Shown here piece after piece: positions 4,003-25,199 of a stretch of 25,199 nt of DNA (position 1 is its first letter; the number at the start of each line of letters is the position of its first letter). Made by a program: the position numbers and the translations under genes. Source of the DNA: a virus; the IMG/VR virus record IMGVR_UViG_3300046532_000038, positions 1 through 25,199 of that record, one strand, 5' to 3'. Below the pieces are notes generated by a model. The model ran no database searches, was not told the DNA's origin, and saw only the letters and a list, made by a program, of their open reading frames with translations.

Positions 4003-5942
4003 TAACGCCTCCCATCAGGACGAATATCCACTCTTGGAGAACCTAACCTCCACGTTACTGACAAATCATCTGACGAGATTTTAAACCTCATCTGTCTACC
4101 ACGAAGCCTAAAATACAACTGCTCTGTTCTATTATCTACAGCCGCTACTTTAGTGCTAACAAACCCTTTTGTACTTTGTTGGTTATACGTCCCATCTGGC
4201 GCGTTCTTCATGTCCAACGTAATATCCACTTCCGGCAAAGTGGCTGTAGAGTTCTTAAAATCTACATCAGGAATCATTTTGTTTATAAACATAAACTGAT
4301 CACCATCCCCTATATCTATAGGGCTGGACTGAATATAAGAATCTACGGCTGAAGCAGGATTTGTTGTTCCATCATTAAACCCAAACTCATGTTCGTATAA
4401 ATATCCATCAGTATTTGCGGCGATTGGGAAATCAAAGATCCCTCTGTCCATCCAAGCTGTACGACCAAGTACGCCATAGTACCAAACTTGCTCAGAGTAA
4501 TTATATACAACATACTTATCCACCTCTTCACTGTTAATGGAAGGGTAGAACCACCACACTTCTGAGTGTTCTGTGTTTAAGGCAGCGTTAATTTTTTCTA
4601 GTTGGTTATCATTTAAATCCGAGAAAATATAGTCTCTAACCGTGCAAGGAAGCCGTTGCACTGCACCACTATAAGTATAAAATTCTGATCTTCCCATCCA
4701 GAACACGTTGTCATCTACTGCAATTACGGCGTTTGGACTGGCTACCGTTATGTTTTCTGAAATAGCAGTCACACCAAAAGTAAAAGGTGGTCCTAAGAAC
4801 TGCATAGCGTACAAAGTTGTGTCAGTTAAAACCAAGATCTGTTGCCTGGTTTCTACTGCGGCAACAATCTCGGACCCAGAACCAAGGCGCAATTCTCCCG
4901 CAGTGTTGGTGGCTTCTGCCCCCCACTGGCTGACTGATTCTTGAGTCGAAAACCGTATAGTTAATGGATCTTGTACTCCTGGCGTAGTTTCAGGATCACA
5001 ACCAAAAGCAATAACGTGCCTGTCTCGATCTGACACCATAACTTGTTTCGCAACGGTAGGAATCTTACCCGTTGCGTTTAATGAAACAAGGCTGACCGCA
5101 CGGGCACCCAGTCCGTTAGAAGAATCCCAGTAATATATACCACCGTCTCTAACATTTATAAGCAAGTCCTCACCAAAATTATCGTGTGACCAAAGACGAA
5201 GTGTGTTCGTTACAATCGAGTCCGTAGATGCGGACCCCCAACCTGATCGACTCCATGTACCTGCGCCCCAACCAGAAGCTTTAACCGTTGTGTTTAGACC
5301 AATGTTAATCTGGTAGTTGCCGACAATAGACCCACCACCGTTTCCTGTGTCACTACCGTTAGCAGGAACAGGAGCCACGTTTCTTATTGTGTGAGGCGTT
5401 GTGCTTGTATCTACCCAAGTCTGTTGAGTAAGGGTAGTGCCCCCTGTCCTTGAAACAATTTGGTAGGAATTGGCATTTACAACCAAAGTGATTTCATACT
5501 CTTGATTTAAAACAGCAGCGGTTATTACGCCCCCTAAACTCGAAGCTCCACTAAACGTAACAAAGTCTCCGACCACGGCACCATGAGTCGTATCAGCAAC
5601 AACGAGAGTGGAGGAACCATTCGTCGCCGCAAACGTAACGGCCCCCGCGGCGGTTTGCTCCCGAATAGGGGTGATGTCGTTATACGCGCCACCTTCTCCT
5701 ATGTAGTATTTTTTGGTTGTGCCCAAACCTATAAACTGGTCTCGATTTAACGTAACCCAAGGATGCAGCGCACGACACGTTCCTAAGAATGTTTCTACGC
5801 CCCGTTTTTGCCAGCCACCTATCTTTTCTGGATACCCTTTTTGAAATCGAACCTTGTCAGAATCAAACCAACCACCTTCATTTGTGTACGAAGTGACTTC
5901 CCGATTAACTCCGGGGTTAAATTGTAGCTTTGATAGAGGCAT
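4002..5942 (-). CDS. Putative tail nozzle/hub protein, P22 gp10-like role (646 aa)
   Basis: The protein begins MPLSKLQFNPGVNREVTSYTNE, with GGWFDSDKVRFQKGYPEKI soon after (about residues 24-43); this opening is one I recall as highly conserved in marine short-tailed phages. The body is beta-rich with repeated aromatic/Gly blades: FLGTCRALHPWVTLNRDQ, QFIGLGTTKKYYIGEGGAY, DDNVFWMGRSEFYTYSG and EVWWFYPSINSEEVDKYVVY, suggesting a beta-propeller. The C-terminus (LYFRLRGRQMRFKISSDD ... WRLGSPRVDIRPDGRR) looks like a compact beta domain. P22 gp10 and related nozzle proteins are beta-propellers that close the tail below the adaptors. Two adaptor candidates in the same operon fit this. Residues about 100-200 hold a less conserved beta domain that may be an insertion. 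The nozzle assignment is inference; a receptor-binding role cannot be excluded. Confidence 0.6.
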   Translation of the reverse strand: MPLSKLQFNPGVNREVTSYTNEGGWFDSDKVRFQKGYPEKIGGWQKRGVETFLGTCRALHPWVTLNRDQFIGLGTTKKYYIGEGGAYNDITPIREQTAAGAVTFAATNGSSTLVVADTTHGAVVGDFVTFSGASSLGGVITAAVLNQEYEITLVVNANSYQIVSRTGGTTLTQQTWVDTSTTPHTIRNVAPVPANGSDTGNGGGSIVGNYQINIGLNTTVKASGWGAGTWSRSGWGSASTDSIVTNTLRLWSHDNFGEDLLINVRDGGIYYWDSSNGLGARAVSLVSLNATGKIPTVAKQVMVSDRDRHVIAFGCDPETTPGVQDPLTIRFSTQESVSQWGAEATNTAGELRLGSGSEIVAAVETRQQILVLTDTTLYAMQFLGPPFTFGVTAISENITVASPNAVIAVDDNVFWMGRSEFYTYSGAVQRLPCTVRDYIFSDLNDNQLEKINAALNTEHSEVWWFYPSINSEEVDKYVVYNYSEQVWYYGVLGRTAWMDRGIFDFPIAANTDGYLYEHEFGFNDGTTNPASAVDSYIQSSPIDIGDGDQFMFINKMIPDVDFKNSTATLPEVDITLDMKNAPDGTYNQQSTKGFVSTKVAAVDNRTEQLYFRLRGRQMRFKISSDDLSVTWRLGSPRVDIRPDGRR

Positions 5943-12927: not shown

Positions 12928-13592
12928 TAGACCCTCAAATAACTCAGACTCGGTTGAAGTTTCAGCGGGGTTCTCCCCTGATCCTCCTCCGCTGCCCTTT
13001 GAAACTCCTCTTCGTACATAGCCTTTAATATCTGCACACGTTCAGGCGCACGTTTAACAGCCATGTAATAAGCCAAACCTGAGACCATACAAGGATAAAA
13101 CCTGAACGGCATGTCAGTAGTGTTGACCAAAGTGTCCGCATCCTCAATCCTGCGAACATAGTAATAGATGATTTGATCCGTTGAGTTCTCAGGAACTGAC
13201 CACAAATGAAGCTTTGGTATAATCTGCCTGTCCAACCAGTACTGGCTGGGGCGACCCTGTGTAGTCTTGTTCGGAAGTGTCGCATAATCACCACGGCTAA
13301 TTCGCTGAACCTCATAGTCAGTGTTGTCTCTGCGAAGAACCACATCAAGCGTGTCAACCACATCAGCCAACAACGGTTCTTCACTCTGCCCCTGAGTAAG
13401 AGTTATCGTAGACTGACTTACTGTCCACAGATTTAAGCCACGGTTAGCCCATTCCGCAAACATCAGATTAAGAGACCGACGAGCAGTCTTGGCATCGTAA
13501 CCAGTGCGGACCTCTAGTCCACACCGCTCATACGCTTCTTCGATAACTTCCCCAACGTCTAGGTTGAAATCCCTTGATCCTGATGTTGTCAT
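12927..13592 (-). CDS. Head completion/adaptor protein, P22 gp4-like role (221 aa)
   Basis: I place the start at the ATG at 13590-13592 (MTTSGSRDFNLDVGEVIEEA), because it shares one base with the upstream stop (TAATG); an in-frame ATG at 13667 would add 25 basic residues inside the upstream gene and is less likely. Helices near the N-terminus carry IEEAYERCGLEVRTGYDAKT and ARRSLNLMFAEWANRGLNLW, then a beta segment with TITLTQGQ, a central DNTDYEVQRISRGDYATLPN and GRPSQYWLDRQIIPKLHLWS. C-terminal helices contain MVSGLAYYMAVKRAPERVQI and YEEEFQRAAEEDQ. This arrangement matches the P22 gp4-type adaptor that binds the portal and stabilises packaged DNA. P22 gp4 is somewhat shorter. Identity is by pattern, not search. 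Confidence 0.7.
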   Translation of the reverse strand: MTTSGSRDFNLDVGEVIEEAYERCGLEVRTGYDAKTARRSLNLMFAEWANRGLNLWTVSQSTITLTQGQSEEPLLADVVDTLDVVLRRDNTDYEVQRISRGDYATLPNKTTQGRPSQYWLDRQIIPKLHLWSVPENSTDQIIYYYVRRIEDADTLVNTTDMPFRFYPCMVSGLAYYMAVKRAPERVQILKAMYEEEFQRAAEEDQGRTPLKLQPSLSYLRV

Positions 13593-13813
13593 TATCCACC
13601 CCTTGCCTGATTGCCTGCGTCCGACTCGACGGAGTTTGCTGCATTCCTTACAAGAAACTCTTGCCACATTGGTTTCAGCATACCGTGGTTTTCATCAACG
13701 CGCCACTGTATGACTGCCACATCTGACTTGAGATGGTAAATCTGAAGAGACCCCCATGCGACAAGCCCCATAGTAATGCCTGCCACTATGCTATTAAAAT
13801 CTAGTTTTAACAT
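13592..13813 (-). CDS. Small single-TM protein (73 aa)
   Basis: ATG at 13811-13813 is preferred; a GTG two codons upstream is the alternative and has poorer ribosome-site spacing. Residues about 7-25 (NSIVAGITMGLVAWGSLQI) are a hydrophobic membrane segment, followed by YHLKSDVAVIQWRVDENHGM, a short helix or coiled coil, and LKPMWQEFLVRN. I recall similar small proteins with a single N-terminal TM and a VDENH--LKPMW helix from marine phages. Membrane location inside the connector gene block is unusual; it may act in lysis (an antiholin or holin-like factor) or in the virion membrane contact during ejection. Its stop shares a base with the next ATG. Function unknown. Confidence 0.72.
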   Translation of the reverse strand: MLKLDFNSIVAGITMGLVAWGSLQIYHLKSDVAVIQWRVDENHGMLKPMWQEFLVRNAANSVESDAGNQARGG

Positions 13814-13822
13814 TTCCACCGC

Positions 13823-18330: not shown

Positions 18331-18540
18331 TTAGTATGTTTTTCCTCTGGTCTTGCTATCTCTTACGTCACCTGCGCGGACTTCACCACCATGCTTCATA
18401 CCACCTGCTCGAAGAAGATCGTTTCTAGAAACCTTTCCGCTACTAGGTAACATAACAGAACCGCCGTTCATCATACCTTTAGACTTTTTCTTCTTAGGTC
18501 TTCCAGCTTTACTTCCATACGTTCCCGGTCCTTGTGGCAT
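18331..18540 (-). CDS. Small Gly/Lys-rich basic protein (69 aa)
   Basis: The ATG follows the endolysin TAG with no spacing. The sequence opens MPQGPGTYGSKAGRPKKKKS, then a Met/Gly segment, LPSSGKVSRNDLLRAGGMKH and GGEVRAGDVRDSKTRGKTY. It is strongly basic and probably unstructured at the N-terminus. I recall similar MPQG-GTYG--GRPKKKK proteins in marine phages, function unknown. DNA binding or packing inside the head is one possibility given the charge; a role in lysis is another given the neighbour. Neither is shown. Confidence 0.72.
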   Translation of the reverse strand: MPQGPGTYGSKAGRPKKKKSKGMMNGGSVMLPSSGKVSRNDLLRAGGMKHGGEVRAGDVRDSKTRGKTY

Positions 18541-19038
18541 CTAGCCCTCCATCAATTCAAAATGTGGAGCGTCAATAAAAGGTCTGCGCCCCTGAGACCG
18601 TCTTAAATCTACATAGTAGTTCATAGCATCTTCCGCCGTACCTGAATAGACCACATCCTCGTTTTCGTAAGTATGAGTTGCGCCGTTCCATGCACTAAAG
18701 TCATCTATATGCCATGCCGCTCCCCAACGAAGCTTAACTCCAAGTTCTTTGGCAGCAGACTTCATAGCATCAGCTATTTCATCGTACAAATTCAACTCCC
18801 AACGGCCTCCGTCAATATATGCCATTAAATCAACGGCATAGCCCCCAAGATGCTTCGATTTCATCGTTTGTGAAGCTCCCTTGGCGACTAACGCCTCCTG
18901 CTCCTTTTTAGTGCGAAGACCGCAAATCACACTGAAATCCTGAGAAGTCTGTCCAATAGCCGCATGAACAACAGCCTGCATACGCTCGTCCACACCCTCA
19001 AGTTTCTCTTTACTTTTATTCCCAAGTTTATACGTCAT
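18541..19038 (-). CDS. Endolysin, peptidase M15 (L-Ala-D-Glu type) (165 aa)
   Basis: The zinc-peptidase signature of M15/VanY-like enzymes is complete: SKHLGGYAVDLMAY places His63 and Asp70 in the HxxxxxxD metal site, and DAPHFEL gives the second ligand His159. FSVICGLRTKKEQEALVAKG before it matches the usual SG-RT-EEQ-AL entrance region. Between them is a WGAAWHIDDFSAWNGA loop. M15 endolysins such as the T5 lysin cut the peptide stem of peptidoglycan at cell lysis. It lacks a signal peptide, so export depends on a holin; a GTA-type holin is two genes upstream. The start overlaps the 51-aa gene's stop (ATGA). Confidence 0.88.
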   Translation of the reverse strand: MTYKLGNKSKEKLEGVDERMQAVVHAAIGQTSQDFSVICGLRTKKEQEALVAKGASQTMKSKHLGGYAVDLMAYIDGGRWELNLYDEIADAMKSAAKELGVKLRWGAAWHIDDFSAWNGATHTYENEDVVYSGTAEDAMNYYVDLRRSQGRRPFIDAPHFELMEG

Positions 19039-19190
19039 TGTTCGACCTTTTTCAGACCATTCGATTTATTTTTTTCACGAGGCTCTCTAAAACCTACGCC
19101 TTCATCCAAGCAAAAACTTTCCTGTTCTTTTTCTATGCGTTCCGCATTACGATCCATTTCTTCAATCTGCATCTGTTTCATCGCACCCAT
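19035..19190 (-). CDS. Short charged protein in lysis block (51 aa)
   Basis: This reading frame is shorter than usual ORF cut-offs but well supported. It starts at ATG 19188-19190, has a TAGGAGAG ribosome site 6 bases upstream whose TAG is the holin stop, and ends with a TGA that overlaps the endolysin ATG by four bases (ATGA). The product begins MGAMKQMQIEEMDRNAERIE, continues KEQESFCLDEGVGFREPREK and ends NKSNGLKKVEQ. It is highly charged and helical at the N-terminus, with one Cys and no membrane segment, so it is not a spanin or holin by itself. Perhaps it tunes lysis or is a translational coupler. It fills an otherwise empty gap between holin and endolysin. Confidence 0.8.
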   Translation of the reverse strand: MGAMKQMQIEEMDRNAERIEKEQESFCLDEGVGFREPREKNKSNGLKKVEQ

Positions 19191-19201
19191 ATTCTTCTCT
19201 C

Positions 19202-19660
19202 CTATTGTTTAACTTTCATGTATTTAGAAATTGCTCTGCCACCAAACCAGAAACTCATAATCGCTGCAAAAAGTCCTGCGGTTTGATCATCCCAAATAAG
19301 GGACAACGATCTACCTAAGTCGTTACCTGAGTTCATCAGAGCAACAATCGCCGTTATCTTGATGGCAATGAAAAGCCCAAAAAAAACATAAGTGACGATA
19401 GGCCGGACACTACCTCGTAGTGCGTTGATAAAGCCTCCAGCGTCCATGCTATCATGTTTATACAACCCCTCTGTCTCTTTAATCTCCGCCTGCTTATCCA
19501 TGATGTTAAGCTGCAATTCACTGCGCTTGGTCATCAACTCCATCTCAAGCTGCATAGACTCCAATTTGTGCTTGTGATCCTGGCCCGCTCTGAAAAAGTT
19601 TAGTACTTCGGGAAGAAAAGAAGTCCCAAATCCCAATAAACTTCCAAGTAATGTAATCAT
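19202..19660 (-). CDS. Holin of the three-TM gene-transfer-agent family (152 aa)
   Basis: The N-terminal hydrophobic segment (MITLLGSLLGFGTSFLPEVL) is followed by a charged helix with HKHKLESMQLEMELMTKRSE (about 29-65). Two more membrane segments are at about 88-108 (IVTYVFFGLFIAIKITAIVA) and 127-141 (AGLFAAIMSFWFGGR). The LRGSVRPIVTY motif before TM2 and the W-----IMSFWFGGR ending are features of the GTA_holin_3TM family, known from alphaproteobacterial gene transfer agents and phages. It should make membrane lesions that release the endolysin. A strong AAGGAG site precedes the ATG. Membership of this family is a confident recall; actual holin function in this phage is inferred. Confidence 0.8.
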   Translation of the reverse strand: MITLLGSLLGFGTSFLPEVLNFFRAGQDHKHKLESMQLEMELMTKRSELQLNIMDKQAEIKETEGLYKHDSMDAGGFINALRGSVRPIVTYVFFGLFIAIKITAIVALMNSGNDLGRSLSLIWDDQTAGLFAAIMSFWFGGRAISKYMKVKQ

Positions 19661-19672
19661 TTCTTTCTCCTT

Positions 19673-19912
19673 CTAGTCCCAGAACTTTGTTTTTAGTGGA
19701 ACGAATTGGGGGAGGCACTTGGCTTGGGTGAGGCTTTCTTTGTTCTCGTAAAAAACCCTGTTACCCACAAAAGTGCTGTTCGCAGTTTTCTCAATAGCCG
19801 TTGCAAACTGCTCACAACGGTAGATGTCACGAAAGACAGCCAACCCATTACCCATGTCATAAGTCTGCCCACTAACCGTAACGGTGAGGACAAAAGCCAG
19901 TATTGTTTCCAT
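19673..19912 (-). CDS. Small probably exported protein with two cysteines (79 aa)
   Basis: I choose the ATG at 19910-19912 (METILAFVLTVTVSGQTYDM), which follows the upstream stop by one base. The N-terminus is a short hydrophobic stretch resembling an uncharged signal or signal anchor. The body holds RCEQFATAIEK with Cys33, an FVGNRVFYENK strand and AKCLPQF with Cys66, so a disulfide is possible outside the cytoplasm. I recall a METIL-VLTVTV-GQT family of short proteins from pelagic phages. A different frame with ATG at 19917 overlaps the previous stop (ATGA) but gives an atypical basic sequence, so I reject it. A longer in-frame start at 20002 would run inside the upstream gene. Position in the lysis block suggests an envelope function, unproven. 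Confidence 0.75.
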   Translation of the reverse strand: METILAFVLTVTVSGQTYDMGNGLAVFRDIYRCEQFATAIEKTANSTFVGNRVFYENKESLTQAKCLPQFVPLKTKFWD

Positions 19913-19913
19913 T

Positions 19914-20150
19914 TCATTTGTCTGATGCCTTGCCTGCTTCAGGGGGCGTGGGAGAGCTTGACTCCTTACCCATCCATATACCAAAGCACCCTGTAAGAGC
20001 ACCCATGCAAACGCTGACTAAACCGCTCTGAGCGATTGAGGGGTCAGGAAGCCCCATAAACCAGTGAACAGCCTGATACGTGAGCACAGTTACCGCCAGC
20101 ATCATAAGACGAGGCAGAACCTTCCATTCATCTAAACTCGTTGCTGCCAT
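19914..20150 (-). CDS. Small two-TM membrane protein, candidate holin/antiholin (78 aa)
   Basis: After MAATSLDEWKVLPR two hydrophobic segments are visible: about 15-33 (LMMLAVTVLTYQAVHWFMG) and about 40-60 (AQSGLVSVCMGALTGCFGIW), with a polar DPSI turn between and a charged, Pro-rich C-terminus (KESSSPTPPEAGKASDK). Size, two TMs and a hydrophilic tail fit a class II-like holin or an antiholin, and a GTA-type holin is encoded two genes downstream. The TV-T-QA--WFM-LPDPS---A-LVS--MGA--G-FGIWM pattern is one I recall from many marine phages, usually unnamed. Both topology and role are inferred. Confidence 0.72.
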   Translation of the reverse strand: MAATSLDEWKVLPRLMMLAVTVLTYQAVHWFMGLPDPSIAQSGLVSVCMGALTGCFGIWMGKESSSPTPPEAGKASDK

Positions 20151-20159
20151 GCTTCACCT

Positions 20160-20621
20160 TTACCATGTCATTAGCCAAACAAGGCCAAATAAACCACCAA
20201 CTAGCATAAAAAACAAGGTAATTCCAGCCGTCCATTCTTTGATACTCTGAACCATCTCTAACCTACGATACTCGTTGTCACGCTTTTGAACACGGATTTC
20301 TGCTTCTATGCGGAGTAATTCTTCCCAATGAGACGGGCCATACATAACCGATATGTAGTCTTTTAGTTCAGCCCTCATGGCATCGCGTTTTTTCTTGGCT
20401 GCAAATATCTCCATTGCTTGCGACTCTACGCCGCCACCTAAGATTTGGAACACGGAGGGGTTTTGGTTTCTTTTGTCGCAGAAATCTAGGTCTGACATAG
20501 CGCCTGCCCAACGACCCAAATCGGTAGCCATGCCCTCCAGATCCCTCCCTACTTGCATTCCTTTTTTTAATGCGGAAAATGCACTTGAGGCGATTGCGAT
20601 TGCAGAAACGGGATCAATCAT
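20160..20621 (-). CDS. Membrane-anchored helical protein of unknown function (153 aa)
   Basis: An AAAGG site lies upstream of the ATG at 20619-20621. The N-terminus (MIDPVSAIAIASSAFSALKK) is an amphipathic Ala-rich helix. The middle (about 70-125) is a long charged helix with MYGPSHWEELLRIEAEIRVQ. The C-terminus is a single membrane segment (about 131-151: TAGITLFFMLVGGLFGLVWL). It therefore probably sits in the inner membrane with its bulk in the cytoplasm, or the reverse. The PVSAI----SAF-A-KKG opening and the MYGP-HW helix are familiar to me from pelagic phages, unnamed. First gene of the membrane/lysis block after the portal. It might be a spanin-like or lysis-regulating factor; no direct evidence. 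Confidence 0.75.
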   Translation of the reverse strand: MIDPVSAIAIASSAFSALKKGMQVGRDLEGMATDLGRWAGAMSDLDFCDKRNQNPSVFQILGGGVESQAMEIFAAKKKRDAMRAELKDYISVMYGPSHWEELLRIEAEIRVQKRDNEYRRLEMVQSIKEWTAGITLFFMLVGGLFGLVWLMTW

Positions 20622-20642: not shown

Positions 20643-23108
20643 CTAGCCCTGTTGCATTTTTTCTCGTTGAACGTCAATACGCTCACGATTCACTCGATTA
20701 CGGTTTTCCGCGATGTCTTCTTGGCTTTCTATTCTAGCCGCATCTGTAGCCGCACGTTGTTGTAATTTTTGAAGCTCCATCAACATATCACCCTGATCGT
20801 CTTCTGTCTTACGCTGCAAATCCTGTTGCTTCAAAGCCAACTCTTGCATACGAATTTGAACCAACGGATCTTCCATAGGATCGTTACCAGCAGGTAGTAG
20901 CCCTGGAAGAACTTCTGCCATCAACTTCTCCATTTGCATGGAGATCAAAGCTTCCATTTGCGCTGGATCAGATACACGTTGCTGAAGCTCCATAATCTGT
21001 TGTTGTGCCGCCTCTGGGTTAATTGCACCCCCTTGCGATGCCAGTTGTGCCTGACTAATCAACCCTTCAATCTCCGCCTGAACCATCTTACGTGCCTTCT
21101 GAGATACATGCTCCATTATATGCGAATAAAACGTACCCATGACCTGTGGGGAAGTCATCACCAAAGGAGTCTTCATAAACGCCATGTGAATACGAATGTG
21201 AATCTCGTGGTTCTGCTCTGGAAACGTAGTAAGGATTTCTCCCATTAACGCCCTAGCGTTCTCAATGGCTGGATCTAATGGTTGTGGTTCTGGCGGTGGA
21301 GGCAATATCTCGTCAATATTTTGTACCTCAAGAGCCTGATACATCCTGCGATAGGCCGCGTGTAAGTTATGTACCTCTGGATTAGACTGCGCCAACTGCA
21401 ACTGTGTCTGTGCCAACGTAACCCGTTGTGCCATCGAGAAGATGTTCGGATCGCTTACAGGTACTACATCTATGCGGTCATCAAAGTCTTCCGCCTTAAT
21501 CATACGATTGCCGCCCTCGACATCATATGGATACTCAGGAGGTAAATTGTCCCTAAATATTCTGGCTAAAATCCTGAACTCTTGGCGTTGCGAATAATGA
21601 AGCCGTTTGTGTATGGCAGACATAACTTTCATACCACGTTCCAACATAGCCACTGTGGTGCCCACAGGAGCCGCTGCGTTGGTATCACCTGTCTGTTGGT
21701 CTGCTAGTGAGACAAAACGCCTTCCGCCCTCTATGAGTGCCCCTAGAAGCTGCGCAAGCGTAGCTGATGGTTCCTTGTACGGAAGAGGTATAATTGCGTC
21801 CCGTATGTTTCCCCCAGGGGCATCAATGTCTCTCCATTCGCCGGGCTGTAAGGGTTCGTCATCATTACGAACCCTTACACCTCGTGCCTTGAACCCAGCA
21901 GGGAGGTTTGCTAGAGTCCCGGCGTCGATCAGTTGCCGTAAAATACTCGTTGCCGCACGACCAAGACCGCCAATCATGTGAATCAAACCAAAGCCATAAA
22001 ACCCTAGCCCCGGCATAAACTTGTAATGCACAAAGTATTGTTGTTTCTTAGCTAAACCTACATCTTCTTCAAAATTACGACGGATAGACAGAATGTGTCC
22101 TGATCCTTCATCCAAGGTCACAATGTACGGTATAGCAATTCCTGTAGGCTCTCCGTCAGGAGACATATCCTCAAAACCCTCAAGGTCTAAATCTATATGC
22201 ATCTCAAGAATAGTGTAAATCTCATCAGAATACGTGCGAGACGTGCCCTGTAAATCGTCAACCTTCTGACGAACTTCGTCTTCTTTATTATATGTACTTA
22301 ACTCTACCTCTTTATAGAAACCCGCAATCTGCATCTTGCGTATCTCATTCGCATCCATTCGTAAGACATGCGTAACACGAGAAGCTGTCGCCAAATCTGA
22401 TGCAGCATAAGGTACAACCAAATCCTGCGCAGGAATAAACTTCGATACCGCCCGCTGTTTAGCCTCATCGTAATAAACCTTCTTAAAGGTAGAACCCGAC
22501 AAGGGTAAATAAAACAATAACTGATCCATGTCTGGATCAAACTCTTCCATGACTTCCATAATCTGGTAGTTCATAAACTGTTTAACTCTAGTGGCCTGCT
22601 CTTCCCTTGCTACGTCCTGTAAACCCAAGACCTGAGTCTTCACTGGACCTCCTGAAGGCAACAATTCCTTGTATGCCTGCGCTTGGAACTGAGTTACACT
22701 CTCAGCAATCAACGGATGAGTTACACCTGAAGCACCCTGAAACGGCTGAGTACGTTCATCATACTTAACGCCCAGTTGATCTAACCCTTGAGTATATGTT
22801 TCTTCCCACTCAGAACGAGACTCCATATCATCTTCGAAAGATGCACGAAGATCCGACGATATTTCTCCAAGGTAAGCGTCATCCAGAAAATCCGCCAAGT
22901 TAGCGTTGTGAGGAATCTGCTGTTCTTGTTCCTCTCCCCCCATAGCCTCAACCAAGGCTTGTACAATCGCACCTCCCTGTCCATCGTCTATAACCTCCGC
23001 ACCGCCTGCAAAACTTTCAGGTTGTGGTACAGATACATCCACAGATGCCTCCGTTGGCATCATGTCTTGGGGTAAAATCCCAGAATCTACAATAGGTGGC
23101 AAAGCCAT
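20643..23108 (-). CDS. Portal protein (821 aa)
   Basis: The gene follows the large terminase with a one-base TGATG overlap. The N-terminal 70 residues are acidic and probably unstructured. The portal core shows DERTQPFQGASGVTHPLIAE, FQAQAYKELLPSGGPVKT, a clip-like LPLSGSTFKKVYYDEAKQRA, IPAQDLVVPYAASDLATASR, and the wing/stem region FYGFGLIHMIGGLGRAATS with SLADQQTGDTNAAAPVGTTV. The conserved Q-F-ASG-T-PL and PVGTT--MLE patterns are shared with portals of marine short-tailed phages by recollection. The C-terminal 150 residues are Gln/Met/Glu-rich coiled coil (ALKQQDLQRKTEDDQGDMLM), likely a barrel or tail extension reaching into the head, as in P22. At 821 residues it is long (portals often 450-750), mainly from these ends. 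Confidence 0.88.
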   Translation of the reverse strand: MALPPIVDSGILPQDMMPTEASVDVSVPQPESFAGGAEVIDDGQGGAIVQALVEAMGGEEQEQQIPHNANLADFLDDAYLGEISSDLRASFEDDMESRSEWEETYTQGLDQLGVKYDERTQPFQGASGVTHPLIAESVTQFQAQAYKELLPSGGPVKTQVLGLQDVAREEQATRVKQFMNYQIMEVMEEFDPDMDQLLFYLPLSGSTFKKVYYDEAKQRAVSKFIPAQDLVVPYAASDLATASRVTHVLRMDANEIRKMQIAGFYKEVELSTYNKEDEVRQKVDDLQGTSRTYSDEIYTILEMHIDLDLEGFEDMSPDGEPTGIAIPYIVTLDEGSGHILSIRRNFEEDVGLAKKQQYFVHYKFMPGLGFYGFGLIHMIGGLGRAATSILRQLIDAGTLANLPAGFKARGVRVRNDDEPLQPGEWRDIDAPGGNIRDAIIPLPYKEPSATLAQLLGALIEGGRRFVSLADQQTGDTNAAAPVGTTVAMLERGMKVMSAIHKRLHYSQRQEFRILARIFRDNLPPEYPYDVEGGNRMIKAEDFDDRIDVVPVSDPNIFSMAQRVTLAQTQLQLAQSNPEVHNLHAAYRRMYQALEVQNIDEILPPPPEPQPLDPAIENARALMGEILTTFPEQNHEIHIRIHMAFMKTPLVMTSPQVMGTFYSHIMEHVSQKARKMVQAEIEGLISQAQLASQGGAINPEAAQQQIMELQQRVSDPAQMEALISMQMEKLMAEVLPGLLPAGNDPMEDPLVQIRMQELALKQQDLQRKTEDDQGDMLMELQKLQQRAATDAARIESQEDIAENRNRVNRERIDVQREKMQQG

Positions 23109-24571
23109 CAGTAATACTCCCGCTTGCGGCGATATTGATTCTCTTCTTCGCCCTCACCGTTTAGGGAAATAAACCCACCACGTCGAAAACGCATTAGTGC
23201 TAACGTCATGCTATCACAATAATCGTCATTGTCGCCATAAGGAAATGAAACAATCTCCTCAATGACATCCTCCGCAAACTTTTTGTCCACTGGTGCCCAC
23301 ACAATACCAGCCTCAAACAAGGGTGCTACCATGTGCATCCTAGATACTTTATCAGACCCCTTGCCTGGAGCAAAGCCCAACGCAGGTATGCCCCTAAGAC
23401 GTAATTCATCTATTAATGGAGTTCCTGTGGCCTTGGCTTCCACAATAACCATGTCAGGTGCCCAATATTCATGTTCCTCATACGCTTTTTCTTTCAATTC
23501 AGGGAAATTCCACCGACCACGCTGTGCATCTAGCAGTATTATGTTGTCTGGTCCGCTCTCTTCAGGCTTAAATATGCCCCATGTCGTAATTGCAGAGTAA
23601 TCTGCGGTTTCTTTCTTGGAAAACGCCGTATCATACGCTTGTACAATATATTGTACAGGAGGAATCTTTTCTTCTTCCCACTTCTGCCACCATTCTCTCT
23701 TAATTATAGCAGAATCCGACGATGTTGGGTTCTGTTGCCACTGCGCATTCCACTTTTGTACAGGCAATGAAGCCTTAATGCCCAATAATGCGTCTTTTTC
23801 CCAAAACTCAGGCCACAATGGCTTGTCAGAAGGCAAGATTGCAGGAAATTCTACCACTTCCCACTGGTCTGACATGATGTCACTACCCTGCGCAGCGATT
23901 AAACGACCTGTTAAGTCCTTCTTACCCCATCGAGTCATAACAATTATGATCGCACCACCAGGTTGAAGACGCTGTCGAGGACCAGAAGTGTACCATTCAT
24001 ACGCATTATCAAACGCACTCTCACTCAAAGCGTCCTGCTCCGAATGTGGATCGTCAATAACAAATAAATCCGCACCACGACCCGTTACCGCAGCTCCAAC
24101 ACCCGCCGCAAAGTACTCACCACCAGCACTGGTTTGCCACTTTCCCGCACCCTTGTTGTCTTCTTTCAAGTGAGTATCAGGAAATATGTCTTTATATTGT
24201 GGATCGTCTATAAGATCACGAACCTTGCGACCAAACCGTACTGCCAACTCTGTGTTGTGCGTAGCCTGAATAATCTTGAGCTTGGGATTTCGCCCCAAGA
24301 ACCACGCAGGCATCAAAAAACTAGCAAACTCAGACTTGGAATGACGTGGCGGCATGTTAATAATCAAACGCTTTAACTCGCCCCTGGCTACCTTTTCCAG
24401 TTTCTCCGCAATGATTCTGTGATGACGGCCCTCAATGAAATTCTCATACACATGATTAGCAAAGGGCATGAAATAATCTTGCGCCTTGTCTCGTATATCT
24501 AGTGTTTTCTTAGCCTCAGTTAAGGCTAAGATTTCCTTTAAAGCTTCCTCTGGTAAGGCTTGTAGGTTCAT
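23108..24571 (-). CDS. terL: Terminase large subunit (487 aa)
   Basis: Motor and nuclease motifs are in the right order. Walker A is NMPPRHSKSEF (about 72-82), the form with PPRHSKS in place of GxxxxGK(S/T) common in this terminase group; Walker B is DLFVIDDPH (168-176); the coupling motif IIIVMTRW is at 208-215. The RNase H-like nuclease follows, with acidic residues in VQAYDTAFS (Asp313), VIVEAKATG (Glu378) and NDDYCDSMTLAL (Asp453). The length (487) is normal. It cuts and pumps phage DNA into the prohead through the portal encoded next. The start overlaps the previous stop by four bases (ATGA). No small subunit is recognised inside the window. Confidence 0.95.
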   Translation of the reverse strand: MNLQALPEEALKEILALTEAKKTLDIRDKAQDYFMPFANHVYENFIEGRHHRIIAEKLEKVARGELKRLIINMPPRHSKSEFASFLMPAWFLGRNPKLKIIQATHNTELAVRFGRKVRDLIDDPQYKDIFPDTHLKEDNKGAGKWQTSAGGEYFAAGVGAAVTGRGADLFVIDDPHSEQDALSESAFDNAYEWYTSGPRQRLQPGGAIIIVMTRWGKKDLTGRLIAAQGSDIMSDQWEVVEFPAILPSDKPLWPEFWEKDALLGIKASLPVQKWNAQWQQNPTSSDSAIIKREWWQKWEEEKIPPVQYIVQAYDTAFSKKETADYSAITTWGIFKPEESGPDNIILLDAQRGRWNFPELKEKAYEEHEYWAPDMVIVEAKATGTPLIDELRLRGIPALGFAPGKGSDKVSRMHMVAPLFEAGIVWAPVDKKFAEDVIEEIVSFPYGDNDDYCDSMTLALMRFRRGGFISLNGEGEEENQYRRKREYY

Positions 24572-25199
24572 ACGCTACGTTTGACTGCCCCAACTGTTTC
24601 TGTCGATGTAGTTGTATTACGTTTTTGACCGGGGCCAGATCCGCGTCTGTATCCACCCGTATATCTTCTTGTACCCGCTCCAGCACGTTGTCTGGTTCTT
24701 TTGACCGACTTCTGACACGTAGGACCGTCATCTCCCTCAACTAGAGTATAACCCTCTGGGCATTCATAAACCGTCTCACCATCTTCATTCGTTGATGTCA
24801 TAGGCGGCACGAAAGGTGGATCAACCTCAAGGTCATCATCTTCTACTTCAACAATGACTTCTTCTTCTTCTTCCTCTTCTTCATCTTCAGGCTCAATTAT
24901 ATCATCTTCTACATCAGTGTAAGTTACAAGATTGTCGTCAATTAAAACTGTCGTATCGTCGTCAACTAGAACTGTAGTATCGTCGTCCGTTGTCTCTTCT
25001 TCCGTAGTCTCTTCCTCTGTCGTCTCTTCTTCCTCTGTAGTCTCTTCTTCCTCCGTAGTCTCTTCCTCTGTCGTCTCTTCTTCCGTAGTCTCTTCTTCCT
25101 CTGTAGTCTCTTCTTCCGTAGTCTCTTCTTCCTCTGTAGTCTCTTCTTCCGTAGTCTCTTCTTCCTCTGTAGTCTCTTCTTCCGTAGTCTCTTCTTCCT
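24568..25199 (-). CDS. Glu/Thr-repeat protein with basic C-terminus, N-terminus beyond window
   Basis: The minus frame is open from the stop at 24568 to the right edge (209 residues visible), so the start lies outside; a GTG at 24810 is an internal codon and not the true start. The visible N-terminal part is acidic EEETT/EEEETT repeats (about 70 residues), then DDDTTVLVD and DDTTVLID repeats, then a long Glu run. A short domain with VYECPEGYTLVEGDDGPTCQ (two Cys) and a strongly basic tail (RTRQRAGAGTRRYTGGYRRG) follow. The acidic repeats and basic tail suggest an extended protein that could mimic or bind nucleic acid or cap a partner. It is directly upstream of terL (ATGA overlap), where a small terminase or head protein gene might sit, but nothing supports small-terminase identity. 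Confidence 0.8.
   Translation of the reverse strand, partial: EEETTEEETTEEEETTEEETTEEEETTEEETTEEEETTEEETTEEETTEEEETTEEEETTEEETTEEETTDDDTTVLVDDDTTVLIDDNLVTYTDVEDDIIEPEDEEEEEEEEVIVEVEDDDLEVDPPFVPPMTSTNEDGETVYECPEGYTLVEGDDGPTCQKSVKRTRQRAGAGTRRYTGGYRRGSGPGQKRNTTTSTETVGAVKRSV
25081..25199. repeat. 33-base tandem repeat, 3.6 perfect copies, continuing off the window
   Basis: A 33-base unit repeats exactly at 25081-25113, 25114-25146 and 25147-25179, with 20 more bases to the edge. Shorter and diverged units continue back to about 24985. On the minus strand one unit encodes an 11-residue EEETT+EEEETT block. Repeat copy number may differ between genomes and could hinder assembly at this end. Confidence 0.92.

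Follow-up and report, generated by a model that had tools for sequence, protein, structure and literature searches.

A probable holin-endolysin lysis cassette between the portal and GroES genes of a marine tailed phage

Introduction

Is a block of small genes lying amid the head genes of a virus, ahead of its major capsid gene, a lysis cassette, and if so, what sets the time of lysis? The question is raised by virus record IMGVR_UViG_3300046532_000038, of which positions 1 to 25,199 were analysed here as a single stretch (the window, 25,199 bases). An initial annotation of this DNA placed a lysis cassette inside the head operon, between the portal and the GroES and scaffold genes, and argued that this position forces some special control of timing. 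The placement was borne out by our analysis, and the same position is kept in relatives. The block very probably serves a marine tailed phage as its holin-endolysin lysis cassette, carried within the late (head) operon and timed by the holin rather than by the order of genes on the transcript.

Results

All late genes of the window lie on the minus strand, and the gene list and order from TerL to capsid that had been given beforehand agree with the open reading frames and with Pfam and PHROG matches. The portal gene (23108-20643), which follows TerL (24571-23108), forms the upstream border of the cassette. The downstream border is the gene for a GroES-like co-chaperonin (18127-17639; PF00166, E=1e-9), beyond which lie the presumed scaffold (17658-16786) and the major capsid protein (15649-14738; PHROG major head, E=6e-25). 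Upstream of TerL, an open reading frame at 24568-25197 (minus strand) consists mostly of acidic EEETT/EEEETT tandem repeats and runs off the edge of the window.

The first gene after the portal encodes p153 (20621-20160; 153 aa; PHROG 32327, listed as unknown), a helical protein with a weakly hydrophobic N-terminal helix and a C-terminal transmembrane segment. It is followed by p78 (20150-19914), which has two predicted hydrophobic segments and a class II holin-like or antiholin-like shape, and by p79 (19912-19673), a possible exported protein with a short N-terminal hydrophobic stretch and two cysteines. The 152-aa holin candidate (19660-19202; PHROG 6637) has a hydrophobic N-terminus, a long polar helical stretch and two hydrophobic segments near its C-terminus, and precedes p51 (19190-19035), which is small and soluble, the endolysin (19038-18541), the small basic protein p69 (18540-18331) and p70 (18314-18102), a conserved protein of 70 aa directly before GroES. 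Hydropathy was the sole basis for calling transmembrane segments; by this measure p153 and the 152-aa protein have the two segments of highest hydrophobicity in any gene of the window, and no such segment is seen in p51 or p69. Hydropathy upholds the earlier view that the block holds several small membrane proteins, and reduces from four to three the membrane or exported candidates ahead of the holin. It is probable that p69 is not a lysis gene and that p70 belongs to the head module.

Neighbouring genes of the block are separated by no more than about 20 bases and in places overlap, at p78/p79 and at p51/endolysin, where the stop codon of p51 overlaps the start of the endolysin gene (ATGA); with such spacing an internal promoter would have hardly any space. 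In the cassette region, promoter-like matches were not above those in shuffles (10 found, 12.4 expected), and a terminator scan found no minus-strand terminator-like site between portal and GroES.

The gene at 18541-19038 encodes a predicted M15 endolysin of the L-alanyl-D-glutamate peptidase type. Its match to Pfam PF13539 (E=4e-6) is above the cut-off and its match to PHROG endolysin has E=2e-47. It is related to solved L-alanyl-D-glutamate peptidases, and it carries the SxHxxGxAxD and PHFE-type motifs as SKHLGGYAVD and APHFE, with the zinc-site residues H63, D70 and H159 invariant in an alignment of 15 sequences. Hydropathy gave no N-terminal hydrophobic segment, that is, no signal or SAR sequence, and as such the enzyme would need a holin. 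Around NGATHTYENEDVV the enzyme has an insertion, about 14 residues long, that most relatives lack; contig L020 has a similar one.

A comparison of gene order with related marine phages, which had been proposed beforehand, was run and found the position of the cassette conserved. All 39 of the M15-matching contigs that include both flanks have the M15 gene between portal and GroES. When full reading frames were used, an endolysin was present in this gap in every one of 45 uncultured marine contigs spanning it, of M15 type in 36 and of GH19 type in 9. The endolysin query had found 18 of these 45; the other 27 were found through the portal alone and so form a fair sample, in which conservation is independent of the lysin-based search. 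No gap in this sample was empty (18 M15, 9 GH19) and all 27 contained exactly one holin-like family; the sample comes from among the best 80 portal loci and speaks for near relatives. Across the 45 contigs, exactly one of three holin-like families was present in 44. Their portal sequences form about 21 groups, and the contigs are therefore not one clone.

What speaks most strongly for a lysis cassette is that the genes of the block are exchanged slot by slot while the order stays fixed. The usual order in the gap is p153, a small exported protein, a two-TM protein, a holin-like protein, an optional spanin-shaped protein, the endolysin and p70. The slot of the 152-aa protein is held in relatives by GTA_holin_3TM or PHROG 2524 proteins. 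The 152-aa family occupies it at 36 loci, PHROG 2524 at 59 and GTA_holin_3TM at 14, with no locus having two, and since related contigs are not independent no probability is attached to these counts. M15 enzymes are paired with all three holin-like families and GH19 enzymes with two, and in 62 of 99 cases the end of the holin-like gene overlaps the start of the lysin gene or lies at most 20 bases from it.

It is mainly because of this exchange that the 152-aa protein is called a holin, as its direct matches are weak. It has no Pfam match, its comparison with PHROG holin gave E=0.012 (best relative, 4.5e-4), and it fell short of the curated cut-off of Pfam GTA_holin_3TM (PF11351), of which it is not filed as a member; four of 14 members of its family match PF11351, weakly (best E=0.089). 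The GTA_holin_3TM family found in the same slot has a Pfam match of E=4e-16. The fold model of the 152-aa protein (pLDDT 56) was too poor to use. With slot exchange as the best evidence, PHROG 6637 and PHROG 2524, both listed as unknown, are likely to be holin families. Profile comparisons among the three holin-like families, with few sequences in the GTA holin set, gave no significant match, and their common descent is not claimed.

A different assignment would make p78 the true holin and the 152-aa protein an antiholin or anchor. The class II holin shape of p78 would fit such a role, and so would its alternation with another protein of two TM segments, a pattern seen in holins: across 100 loci, p78 and an EF-hand-like two-TM protein occur at 52 and 37 loci, respectively, and never together. 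In phage HMO-2011, moreover, a p78 relative adjoins the endolysin. However, the slot adjoining the endolysin is the usual place of the holin, and in several relatives a recognised GTA_holin_3TM protein fills the 152-aa slot and not the p78 slot, including in L132, which also has p78. This assignment is in our view unlikely, and the 152-aa protein is retained as the holin candidate.

The presence of p153 in 42 of the 45 portal-to-GroES contigs, and of p153 relatives near an endolysin in CRP-1 and HMO-2011, marks it as a putative near-constant lysis-associated protein of marine phages. A fold search with its model (pLDDT 71) gave no significant match. For p79, no close relative was found in full reading frames; L046 has a cut-off copy, and a weak relative lies near the lysis genes of HMO-2011.

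Spanins, either a lipoprotein with an inner-membrane partner or a unimolecular protein, are common but not universal in holin-endolysin cassettes. A simple lipobox rule, applied to every frame of the 25,199-base window, a fragment of the genome, gave no lipoprotein signal, and no spanin lipoprotein was identified there. Some relatives have a spanin-shaped protein in the cassette, optional and located between the holin-like protein and the endolysin. Elsewhere in the window, a gene at 13592-13819 (minus strand, GTG start) encodes 75 aa with an N-terminal transmembrane segment and a polar tail, a shape like that of an inner-membrane spanin; relatives of this protein occur downstream of the capsid gene in L087, L088, L144 and L146.

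Discussion

The time of lysis is set mainly by when the holin reaches a critical concentration (PMC3166277). In the mechanism that we propose, the operon would be read as one late transcript, and, while heads are being assembled, the 152-aa protein would accumulate in the inner membrane, which it would open on reaching that concentration; the signal-less endolysin would then reach the wall and cut its peptides. Lysis time would depend on the rate of holin synthesis and on the properties of the holin, possibly tuned by p78 and p79, and not on transcript order. In this mechanism p153 would be a constant tail-anchored accessory, for which membrane anchor, a part in an outer-membrane step and holin regulator are candidate roles; p79, or a gene not seen here, may instead serve the outer-membrane step. 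For the small membrane proteins of the block more generally, antiholin and anchor are possible roles, as candidates only.

The initial annotation held that a position before the capsid gene forces special timing control, and such a position might require a dedicated antiholin or a translational delay, lest lysis precede the making of capsids. Beside the holin candidate the block encodes three more small membrane or exported proteins, in slots that are nearly constant. The predicted ribosome-binding site (RBS) of the capsid gene is the strongest in the window (-12.5), and those of the endolysin, p78, p79 and p153 are among the weaker (-3.0 to -4.3), on scores that assume the common bacterial anti-SD sequence. 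Weak translation, also suggested beforehand, may thus apply to these four genes, but not to the holin, whose predicted RBS is among the stronger (-8.8). Transcription of lysis genes before the capsid gene is not a paradox, since phages lambda and P2 have theirs ahead of or among the morphogenesis genes and ordinary holin control suffices in both (PMC3166277). Lambda and P2 themselves have antiholins, and one here would be ordinary. Against the latent period that has been reported for HTVC027P, about 18 h (PMC12753301), any delay due to transcript order would also be small. A requirement for dedicated control is thus improbable, and the claim that position forces it was not sustained; ordinary timing by the holin remains our preferred reading.

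The place between portal and GroES is uncommon for lysis genes, and we did not find this arrangement reported in the openly licensed literature, whereas a place ahead of the capsid gene is not uncommon. The late transcript of lambda reads on from the lysis genes into the head genes. As in the window, the S-R-Rz-Rz1 genes of lambda are transcribed before the capsid genes; they lie directly after Q in the gene order and are co-transcribed from the late promoter (PMC3166277). Unlike those of the window, which follow TerL and portal, they are at the promoter-proximal end of the late operon and include spanins. In the O operon of P2 (NC_001895), also a morphogenesis operon, holin and endolysin genes have head genes on one side and tail genes on the other, but there the capsid gene is ahead of the lysis genes and spanin genes are present. 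In P22-like phages (PMC2629481) non-homologous holins and lysins swap at one place of the late operon, which is similar to the exchange observed here; the window differs in that its place is between portal and GroES/scaffold, in the addition of the near-constant p153, and in that no Rz/Rz1 pair was found.

The closest TerL relatives are HTVC023P-type pelagiphages (TerL 52-59% identical), psg01 and the freshwater phage DSL-LC04. TerL and GroES are among the HTVC023P-type core genes (PMC9599517). The predicted packaging and head genes of the window phage resemble those of HTVC023P-type pelagiphages, a resemblance only, from which membership is not claimed. Both have TerL, portal, small genes including a holin-like gene, GroES, scaffold and capsid in this order, and a PHROG 2524 protein is kept between portal and GroES in HTVC027P, HTVC023P and psg01. 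DSL-LC04 likewise has TerL, portal, small genes, GroES, scaffold and the head genes after it in common with the window. No endolysin match was found between portal and GroES in the four closest TerL relatives (HTVC023P-type, psg01, DSL-LC04). HTVC027P, in contrast to the window, has an M15 endolysin of another subfamily (PF08291) in a different region. In its genome (L001) the M15 endolysin gp17 (1966-2442) is far from the holin-like gp46 (20665-21051) of the portal-GroES gap, and the main text of the HTVC027P transcriptome paper names no endolysin or holin gene.

HMO-2011-type phages, which infect Puniceispirillum and Roseobacter, are like the window in having relatives of p153 and p78 in a cluster, several also with an M15 endolysin, but in these phages the cluster lies just upstream of TerL and portal. 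In HMO-2011 itself the p153 and p78 relatives precede an unrelated GH24 lysozyme, which takes the place of M15 and is adjoined by the p78 relative. That the M15 and GH19 enzymes, which sit among head genes, serve in the virion or in head maturation and not as endolysins is highly improbable, given that they are small, single-domain proteins with PHROG endolysin matches, that an unrelated peptidoglycan enzyme swaps into the slot, that the gap contains a holin-like protein, and that Roseobacter phages have an M15-type enzyme apart from the head genes.

In 43 of the contigs compared, many of them short, parts of the cassette are present without a match to the head module of either the window or HMO-2011. 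With relatives of its parts in these contigs and in HMO-2011-type phages, the cassette appears to move between phage lineages. It is possible, though rather doubtful, that p153, the small exported protein and the two-TM protein form an undescribed set of lysis accessories, either standing in for spanins or timing the holin, and that this set passes among marine phages in the company of unrelated holins and endolysins.

Both the place of the cassette and its near-constant protein, p153, deserve to be put on record. A position in the late operon with portal on one side and GroES/scaffold on the other is a stable home for a lysis cassette, and the exchange of genes within it provides a likely function, that of holin, for two PHROG families listed as unknown. 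Three holin-like families and two lysins at one position also constitute matched natural variants with which determinants of lysis time could be tested in phages of marine bacteria. Two public records consulted for this comparison contain probable errors. That of Limnohabitans phage DC33 (L170, PQ492659; 39 kb) is assigned to Inoviridae, a misfit with its size and gene content. In that of CRP-823 (L167, PV211013), the annotation at 5001-5695 looks to be one gene off, with the M15 match under 'hypothetical protein' and the next gene named M15 metallopeptidase.
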